DNA of 10,000 nt from Chloroflexota bacterium (lineage in GTDB: Bacteria; Chloroflexota; Anaerolineae; Anaerolineales; Villigracilaceae): assembly GCA_020217065.1 (NCBI GenBank), contig JAIWOB010000062.1, positions 1 to 10,000 of the forward strand, in the 5' to 3' direction. The translations under genes and the position numbers were made by a program. This document shows, piece after piece, positions 4,764-5,980 of this stretch; the stretch's first letter is position 1; the number at the start of each line of letters is the position of its first letter. The notes beneath the pieces are model-generated. The model was not told the DNA's origin, did not search any database, and saw nothing but the letters and a program-made list of their open reading frames with translations.

Positions 4764-5009
4764 ATGCCAACCGCATTAAAAATCGGCCCTTATCGCTTTT
4801 ATTTTTACTCTTACGATTGCGTCGAGCCGCGTCACATGCACGTTGACCGCGAGGGCATGAGCGCGAAAATCTGGCTTGACCCCGTCGTATCCCTGGCGGA
4901 AAATCACGGATACAGCCGCAGGGAGTTGCGCGAAATCGAAAGAATTGCAACGGAAAATTTGGAGAAGCTGAGAAATGAATGGGACAACTTCTGTAGCGGT
5001 AACGATTAG
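4764..5009 (+). CDS. DUF4160 domain protein
   Basis: 81 residues and essentially all domain. The start at MPTALKIGPYRFYFYS fits the normal N-terminus of the family; the frame is open further upstream, but that part looks non-coding. Family hallmarks are FYFYSYDCVEPRHMHVDREG (the EPxHxHV core), AKIWLDPV, a Gly-Tyr-Ser turn and the C-terminal helix ELREIERIATENLEKLRNEWDNF. The ribosome site is weak (GGAACGG, about 4 nt before ATG). The last 35 bp overlap the next gene. The family has no firmly established function. It often occurs beside DUF2442 in bacterial genomes, and such pairs are suspected of being toxin-antitoxin-like, which remains an inference. Confidence 0.9.
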   Translation: MPTALKIGPYRFYFYSYDCVEPRHMHVDREGMSAKIWLDPVVSLAENHGYSRRELREIERIATENLEKLRNEWDNFCSGND

Positions 5010-5280
5010 CCTGCCGAGGGTTGTCAACGTCTCTGTGACGGACGACACCTTATCGGTGGATTTGGAAGACGGGCGGACGGTGTCCATCCCGATTGGCTGG
5101 TATCCGCGCCTCGCGCATGGGACTCCCGCCGAGCGCGCCAATGTCCAGATTGCAGGGGCAGGGTTCGGACTTCACTGGCCCGATTTGGATGAAGATATTG
5201 GCGTGGAAGGAATTTTGCTCGGCAGGCGTTCCGCCGAAAGCCCGCAATCGTTCGAGAAATGGCTGCGGGCGAGGAAGTAA
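4975..5280 (+). CDS. DUF2442 domain protein
   Basis: 101 residues. The domain is clear from VSVTDDTLSVDLEDGRTVS, IPIGWYPRL, TPAERAN, and the signature GLHWPDLDEDIGVEGIL, which is close to the C-terminus as usual. ATG 4975 lies 35 bp before the DUF4160 stop, with GGAG about ten bases upstream (4961-4964), so translation of the pair is probably coupled. Later starts would remove part of the first strand. Its function is unknown; as the second gene of the pair it could be an antitoxin or a partner subunit, but the sequence does not show which. A hairpin follows the TAA stop by 7 bp. Confidence 0.92.
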   Translation: MNGTTSVAVTISLPRVVNVSVTDDTLSVDLEDGRTVSIPIGWYPRLAHGTPAERANVQIAGAGFGLHWPDLDEDIGVEGILLGRRSAESPQSFEKWLRARK

Positions 5281-5287
5281 GACGAAA

Positions 5288-5319
5288 AGACCCTAAAGGC
5301 TCGCAAACCTTTAGGGTCT
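5288..5319. terminator. Perfect hairpin between convergent genes, likely two-way terminator
   Basis: A perfect 12-bp inverted repeat (AGACCCTAAAGG, 5288-5299, and CCTTTAGGGTCT, 5308-5319) with an 8-base loop. It sits between the DUF2442 stop (5280) and the stop of the minus-strand TPR remnant (5325). On the minus strand it is followed by TTTT; on the plus strand the following bases are only AT-rich (GATATTTATT). The outer bases AGACCC...GGGTCT match those of the 66-bp palindromic elements at 5482 and 5679. Confidence 0.8.
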
Positions 5320-5481
5320 GATATTTATTCAACGCCCTCCACCGCCTTTCGGACTTCTTTCAAGATTCCGTCTTTGTCGCATTTCGCCAGCTCGTCAAAC
5401 AACCGCAGAACTGACTTGACCACCCCCGCGTGCGGGGCGATTTTGCGCGCTTTTTTGAAGGTCTTTATCCCATCCTGTGCC

Positions 5482-5547
5482 AGACCTGACAGGTTTTCGC
5501 CCCTTGGCTCCTCGCCCGTAAGACTCTCCGTAAAACCTGTCAGGTCT
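5482..5547. repeat. 66-bp palindromic element, copy 1
   Basis: Perfect 16-bp inverted arms, AGACCTGACAGGTTTT (5482-5497) and AAAACCTGTCAGGTCT (5532-5547), enclose a 34-bp loop. On the minus strand the element stays open in the frame of the TPR remnant and encodes DLTGFTES...RGENLSGL. The length is 22 codons, a multiple of three. No target-site duplication is evident. Confidence 0.88.
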
Positions 5548-5551
5548 TTAT

Positions 5552-5572
5552 CCAATCCCCAATTACCAACAA
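5552..5572. repeat. CCAATYN heptamer repeat at the pseudogene frame break
   Basis: Units CCAATCC, CCAATTA and CCAACAA lie 4 bp beyond palindromic copy 1. The frame carrying LDAKGLAISGLLVI and the frame carrying the C-terminal helices meet here, so a gain or loss of a 7-bp unit is a simple explanation for the shift. Confidence 0.6.
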
Positions 5573-5678
5573 CCCTGAAATTGCCAGCCCCTTCGCGTCC
5601 AGCGCGTCGTAATCATCCTCCGTCTTGGCGAGAATCTCATCCGCTTGCGCGATGGCGCGGGTGAAGGCGGAACGCGCA

Positions 5679-5744
5679 AGACCCGTCAGGTTTTCACCGC
5701 GAGACTCCCCGCCCGCAGGACTCTCCGTAAAACCTGACGGGTCT
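5679..5744. repeat. 66-bp palindromic element, copy 2
   Basis: Perfect 16-bp inverted arms, AGACCCGTCAGGTTTT (5679-5694) and AAAACCTGACGGGTCT (5729-5744), enclose a 34-bp loop. It has the same total, arm and loop lengths as copy 1, with 12 of 66 positions different. Four of those differences form two compensated base pairs in the stem. On the minus strand it encodes GFTES...RGENLTGL, in the same phase as copy 1. Confidence 0.88.
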
Positions 5745-5980
5745 CCTGCCATACGAAGCAGGATGATTCCATGCAGGACGGAGATTGCCGAGGCGGTTGC
5801 CTTCGCCGCGTCGGTCGCCGATTTCACGGGAGGCGCAAATCGCGCTTGTCGTACCGAACGGCGATGGACGGGTTGCCGCCCGTCAATTTTTCGGCGAATT
5901 TGCGGATGAACTCCAGCCCGTCCGCGGTGGAATAACTATGGTTCGCGGGCAGGGGGAAGCGTCTCGTTTTATCTCTGCGG

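Follow-up and report, generated by a model that had tools for sequence, protein, structure and literature searches.

Two palindromes in the remains of a TPR gene

The DNA analyzed here (the window) is a stretch of 10,000 nt from a Chloroflexota bacterium, positions 1 to 10,000 of contig JAIWOB010000062.1. It carries two 66-bp palindromes, copy 1 and copy 2, where a minus-strand gene remnant encodes C-terminal portions of a large tetratricopeptide repeat (TPR) protein (Table 1). Both belong to a dispersed family of palindromes, here family A, whose members also lie beside and inside transposase genes. As the original prediction had it, the copies share one architecture, with perfectly complementary 16-bp arms around a 34-nt loop, and lie 131 bp apart. 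Their arms differ at two pairs, each altered on both sides, and the peptides read from them, DLTGFTESLTGEEPRGENLSGL and DPSGFTESPAGGESRGENLTGL, are identical at 15 of 22 residues. Exact inverted repeats in the window (arm of at least 14, loop of at most 100) begin at six start positions, whereas 100 dinucleotide shuffles gave none, indicating that both palindromes are real and beyond chance. The long hairpin is the predicted fold of all four single strands derived from the two copies (z -5.1 to -6.0).

Table 1. Features of the window in and around the TPR gene remnant.
Feature	Position	Strand	Remarks
Palindrome copy 1, 66 bp	5482-5547	.	Arms 5482-5497 and 5532-5547, loop 34 nt
Palindrome copy 2, 66 bp	5679-5744	.	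Arms 5679-5694 and 5729-5744, loop 34 nt; insertion site also in genome G132
TPR-protein remnant, frame running through copy 2	5540-5827	-	Open reading frame, minus-strand frame 0
C-terminal piece of the same TPR-protein remnant, through copy 1	5325-5570	-	Other frame; upper limit approximate
17-bp direct repeat	5459-5475	+	6 bp outside copy 1; partner 5542-5558, 94%
17-bp direct repeat	5542-5558	+	Overlaps other end of copy 1
32-bp hairpin, AGACCCTAAAGG arms	5288-5319	.	Short member of sister family B; just past stop of gene 4975-5280

Both copies had been placed in frame within one TPR gene. This did not hold: their starts lie 197 bp apart (2 mod 3), and because this distance is not a multiple of three the copies fall in different frames, which rules out a single open reading frame (ORF) through both. 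The reading frame shifts between copy 1 and copy 2 and seemingly changes once more upstream of copy 2; we therefore read the gene as a frameshifted remnant, and sequencing error may be an alternative cause of the shifts. A search with positions 5540-5827 matched 17 of 57 genomes of the genus, the own genome included. Fourteen of the 16 matches outside the own genome lie within open frames of 500 to 1112 codons, and one homologue shows clear TPR domains.

Nine of these 16 loci were usable for alignment, the other seven having been read on the wrong strand and set aside. Against the nine, copy 2 is an in-frame insert between RxxGD and ARxAF (RxxGD^..ARxAF), and copy 1 lies in a linker that varies in length and sequence. 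In the G132 homologue, a 67-bp family-A element (L148 1448-1514) occupies the copy-2 site; the other eight usable homologues have no family-A end near it. The G132 loop resembles that of copy 2 at 11 of the first 12 positions and at 21 of 34 overall. Its ends pair with each other save for one extra base at the right end, where the frame of the G132 gene changes, and they differ from the copy-2 ends on both sides, so that the peptide at the shared site reads DLTGL..DLSG in G132 and DPSG..NLTG in copy 2. Since site and loop start are common to both genomes and the ends are paired yet different, the insertion probably predates the split of the two species, and the ends at this site probably changed together. 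The linker that holds copy 1, before AIETFRKARKIAPHAG, contains other repeat-like peptide inserts (e.g. RRTIDDGQSSMVNGQSPTVYR) in L147, L148, L150, L154 and L158, and is perhaps a hotspot for in-frame repeats.

The loops of copies 1 and 2 agree at 26 of 34 positions, whereas five other compared sites match them at only 11-17. Copy 1 may thus be a local duplicate or conversion product of copy 2 in a decaying gene, in which case the window pair would represent one insertion. The greater age of the copy-2 site, shared with G132, fits this origin, as does a BLAST search of 150 family genomes with the 66-mer, which returned a single further copy (76%); spacers in the family diverge. However, the two arm pairs differ with both sides altered, the copies occupy different sites, and the element family itself is left without explanation. 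We regard local duplication as a serious possibility for the pair, a little short of probable.

Family A is dispersed and falls into size classes

Further copies were found in the own genome and in relatives, as the original prediction anticipated, and the palindromes form a dispersed family that is more than a local duplication. The family-A end is AGACCTGACAGGTTT(T). In the own assembly (1.6 Mb) AGACCTGACAGGTTT has 36 exact copies. Across the 57 genus genomes there are 927 exact copies of AGACCTGACAGGTTT, present in 55 of the 57, and none of the reversed control. A separate count that allows two mismatches gives 120 versus 8 in the control, though one near-palindromic site may score there on both strands. 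The ends mostly form inverted pairs of about 34, 62-66 or 96 bp. In the window and 40 of the 157 contigs, the hairpins whose arms read AGACC....AGG number 31, four of them from other families, and comprise 14 of 32-36 bp, 2 of 43-45 bp, 6 of 64-66 bp, 1 of 70 bp and 8 of 96-97 bp. Loops at different sites are, by eye, mostly unrelated.

Elements of 62-68 bp were sought by exact matching in the species genomes of GTDB, which gave at least 118 stretches. From these, 81 elements in 80 loci are given here (12 of 62 bp, 34 of 63 bp, 12 of 64 bp, 10 of 65 bp, 9 of 66 bp and 4 of 67 bp). Among the matches listed, the records are mostly named Chloroflexi or Anaerolineae and include Balneolaceae, Pinibacter soli and a Thiomargarita record. 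The latter (G154, gammaproteobacterial) contains 264 exact copies of AGACCTGACAGGTTT and has no match to the clade-A transposase query described below. Many 63-bp copies, from metagenome-assembled genomes such as CFX8, CFX4, CHL1 and CHL11, have common outer flanks, and the repeated unit there is therefore longer than the palindrome. At loci L163, L174, L207, L212 and similar ones, flanks such as gtaaccgttc/gtaaccattc stand before the element and cttgagggac after it.

Together, a family-A element is a spacer between conserved 16-nt ends in inverted orientation and can form a hairpin, and its copies are many, dispersed and mostly extragenic. These are traits of the REP doublet forming hairpins (REPINs) and bacterial interspersed mosaic elements (BIMEs) that are built from repetitive extragenic palindromes (REPs) and associated with REP-associated tyrosine transposases (RAYTs).

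RAYT genes are flanked and entered by matching palindromes

PF01797 gives the cognate RAYT clade poor scores, and only a weak match in an Ardenticatenaceae genome (G155:C453), to a RAYT gene, led to it. Around this gene lie four family-A elements, three of them good and ~95 bp long and the fourth decayed. The RAYT has the HUH and Y motifs and an IS200-like fold. A profile search of the PDB with the RAYT gave 4er8 only, 4ER8 being the closest solved fold, and a plain phmmer search of the PDB gave no match. Other folds of lower score (tRNA-His guanylyltransferase, viral Rep domains, ribosomal S6) were put down to a general similarity of fold.

We read 28 RAYT reading frames, among which L291 and L315 are one gene reached twice; the motif missed L298, L303 and L312, of which L298 and L312 were read separately and L303 was left out, and the loop of L326 was not parsed. 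The relatives of this RAYT in the genus fall into clades, and three sister clades each go with their own palindrome family in a nearly one-to-one manner. In clade A (L301, L302, L306 and L312, with L298) family-A elements lie alongside in all five loci. Inside the gene, the family-A element is complete (96 bp) in L306 and L312, in frame directly after the HxH motif, 33 bp long in L301, reduced to a half in L302 and absent from L298. All eight clade-B genes that were read contain a 95-bp family-B element, and their neighbouring elements are of family B only, of the three families tested. Clade-C genes contain a family-C element of 33 bp (L307, L314, L316, L317, L319, L324) or a half (L315/L291), and family C occurs close by L307, L314, L315 and L316, ~1.2 kb from L319, and not around L317 and L324. 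In eight RAYTs from other clades, all three palindrome families are absent both from the gene and from its surroundings.

Furthermore, the residues encoded by the two arms are T/S or S/T in 98 of the 99 RAYT proteins in which two arms, no more and no fewer, could be scored (the remaining 21 of 120 proteins lack exactly two arm motifs and lie outside this count), indicating that the palindrome is kept within the reading frame. The spacing of the in-gene palindrome is mostly fixed at 27 codons.

L304 holds two adjacent clade-B RAYT genes (1141-1851 and 2033-2716), each with an in-frame 95-bp element, and more copies lie between and around them. The 32-bp hairpin of the window belongs to the family that clade-B genes carry internally. 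In the own genome, a different RAYT-type gene (L053, G000:C102, ~5190-5815) has a decayed, 96-bp-like family-A copy just upstream, with short direct repeats around.

Elements are read in frame in other genes

That proteins tolerate such insertions was borne out. Elements lie in frame in LipB, in a UvrD-like helicase and in RAYTs; most copies fall outside long frames, and the host gene in the window is broken. The use of one phase only was not upheld, as two are in use: the window, helicase and RAYT genes read DLTGF..NLSGL, and LipB reads RPDR..PVRS. We screened 101 elements (60-100 bp; RAYT loci and elements near locus ends left out) for frames that stay open over 100 codons in both directions, and 7 lay inside such frames versus 94 outside. 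Four of the seven are clear in-gene copies, all of 66 bp; the other three (64, 64 and 65 bp) seem to lie at gene borders or in antisense frames. L187, from another Chloroflexota genome, carries a 66-bp element in frame in a protein that is TPR-like by eye; it failed the screen, being open for 74 codons on one side.

In the UvrD-like helicase one site holds a 66-bp, a 33-bp, a half or no element across relatives, as judged by protein; because the pattern missed 91 of 120, we aligned a selection of 49 members to read the site. Scored by the T/S rule, 31 of the 120 helicases are TS, 4 ST (one of them, P0304, spurious) and 1 TT, 29 show one motif and 55 none. LipB uses the second open phase of the element (RPDR...PVRS). 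Both element-coded ends were detected in 102 of the 120 nearest LipB homologues, a count made with a regular expression, biased towards the insert-carrying query and with DNA seen for two only. Homologues P0165, P0170, P0190, P0202, P0218 and P0231 show another loop at this LipB site, GGVRTLRVPTLDSDLQSQEALQSIPQAD or a variant of it, which may stem from a further repeat family translated in frame.

The hairpins might instead be structural RNA, kept as transcription terminators or mRNA stabilizers, their likeness to mobile elements being secondary. T runs terminate several copies of the short class, and the family-B hairpin of the window directly follows a stop codon and probably doubles as the terminator of the gene that ends at 5280. 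Against a structural RNA stand the long and variable spacers (30-64 nt), the copies inside ORFs, the families matched to RAYTs and an Rfam search of the window in which no family matched. We consider this explanation very improbable, and a terminator role was dropped as the main one.

Changes in the arms are paired in part

Pressure to keep the hairpin had also been proposed. Paired changes recur at other loci, in the sister families and at the site shared with G132, but the short class of 30-46 bp is mostly unpaired. In the own genome, variant end positions were matched on both ends in six cases (shuffled mean 1.35, maximum 5), the partner end having been picked by likeness to the consensus only and window copy 2 lying outside the limits of the count.

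The palindromes are very probably REPIN-like elements

Together, these data make it very probable that the window palindromes are non-autonomous elements of REPIN/BIME type, most likely copied by an HUH-type RAYT. The likely mover is a RAYT clade that resembles subclass 2.4 of Quentin et al. (RAYT group 4 of Bertels). The RAYT would recognize the hairpin when the DNA is single-stranded and insert it at another place. Copies landing in genes would survive if they consist of whole codons, are free of stops and fall in a flexible loop. The end AGACCTGACAGG has no stops in two of three frames, and lengths of 33, 66 and 96 bp correspond to 11, 22 and 32 codons. We infer that family A has transposed, with the RAYT as its mover, and has been active recently in the own genome.

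Several observations weigh against this reading. Published REPs typically have a GT[AG]G foot, which none of 58 end flanks shows (29 own-genome pairs), and neither GTAG nor GTGG adjoins family-A ends. Among 30 loci with PF01797 genes of the genus, only three have a near-match end (at most two mismatches) within about 1.5 kb: ~220 bp before the match in L119, ~460 bp after it in L140, and a family-B-like end in L121. L326, a clade-C-like RAYT, breaks the correspondence of clades and families with a family-A hairpin upstream. The RAYT query had no match in the own genome, which is 66% complete, although its ends reach 22.5 per Mb, equal to the 22.4 of G132, which has a clade-A RAYT. No clade-A RAYT was matched in G152 (29 exact ends), G154 (264), G156 (4), G158 or G159. 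RAYT matches in G153 are 30-38% identical and have no family-A end within the fetched locus, and G147 and G114 have many ends with only other or weak RAYT matches. The four genomes with a clade-A RAYT have 5.7-22.4 ends per Mb versus a median of 2.7 in the 53 others (p 0.004), a modest difference, and the same ends occur in other phyla without a clade-A RAYT. Finally, 19 variant end positions of the own genome are unmatched, and in its 30-46 bp class one is matched versus 13 that are not.

Some of these points would suit a miniature inverted-repeat transposable element (MITE), that is, a non-autonomous derivative of an ordinary insertion sequence that has AGACCTGACAGGTTT as its terminal inverted repeats and is moved by the transposase of that sequence. 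Inverted ends with unrelated spacer between them are consistent with a MITE, as are the 17-bp direct repeats beside copy 1, whose spacing of 83 bp is not a multiple of three. Identical ends are present in Balneolaceae, Pinibacter and Thiomargarita; no clade-A RAYT was found in the latter two, and Balneolaceae have distant relatives only, without family-A ends in the fetched loci. However, no transposase-sized unit between ends was noticed among the end positions listed, in which no systematic search was made, and RAYT genes are both flanked and penetrated by elements of the matching family. We hold a MITE origin to be improbable.

A further proposal, which we put forward as doubtful, is that the in-gene palindrome of the RAYTs acts in cis and is conserved for this, rather than being tolerated junk. 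Each transposase would then carry its own substrate as a hairpin that selection keeps through the T/S alternation and the near-fixed 27-codon spacing, serving as master copy or self-control site, in three parallel pairs of clade and palindrome; LipB may likewise have kept an element-coded loop for good.

Relation to known systems

In the passages cited, REPINs, described in 2011, have invariant 16-bp ends, a variable spacer and compensatory changes, and cluster beside the matching RAYT (PMC3116915). Family A shares the inverted 16-bp ends, the less conserved spacer, the hairpin, the compensatory changes and the clusters at RAYTs, but has another end sequence and three size classes, and some of its copies are in frame, whereas those published there are extragenic (PMC3116915). 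According to the sections of Quentin et al. 2018 cited here, TnpA-REP subclass 2.4/RAYT group 4 has REPs inside the transposase gene, and 'double foot' REPs carry the tetranucleotide at one end and its reverse complement at the other (PMC6006769); unlike subclass 2.4, the family here is without a GT[AG]G foot. The cited parts of a 2013 study describe intragenic REPs tagged by GTAG or CGTC as inserts coding 20-30 residues in ORFs, UvrD/REP helicases included, and name Chloroflexi among the phyla with GTAG repeats (PMC3733652). Family A differs in having neither GTAG nor GTGG beside its ends.

The same source describes, in its cited passages, the Rickettsia palindromic elements (RPEs) as in-frame palindromic insertions in unrelated proteins (PMC3733652). 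The original prediction had drawn an analogy to them; REPIN/BIME elements of RAYT transposases are the better match. Both RPEs and family A are palindromes read in frame in unrelated genes, but the elements here come from another phylum and go with Chloroflexota RAYT genes, the comparison with RPEs being by description and not by sequence. We give membership in the RPE family next to no chance.

The literature already has REPINs, intragenic REPs and REPs within RAYT genes of this sort, and what is described here is therefore a new family and a variant within a kind that is known. The literature passages on REPs that we cite do not mention a family without GT[AG]G, parallel families matched to clades, near-strict T/S alternation, the 27-codon spacing or size switching at one site. 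Likewise, no description of such a family was found in the literature covered, for which the end sequence was not a search term and supplements lay outside the scope.

The REPIN-RAYT system, in a form without the usual GT[AG]G foot, would thus extend to a large and mostly uncultured group of bacteria. The genes entered by these elements provide a natural data set, in which a full, smaller, half or empty element stands at the same loop of the same protein, and from which growth, shrinkage and retained palindromy of translated elements can be read. The T/S swap would serve as a built-in marker of DNA or RNA hairpin constraint inside a protein-coding gene.
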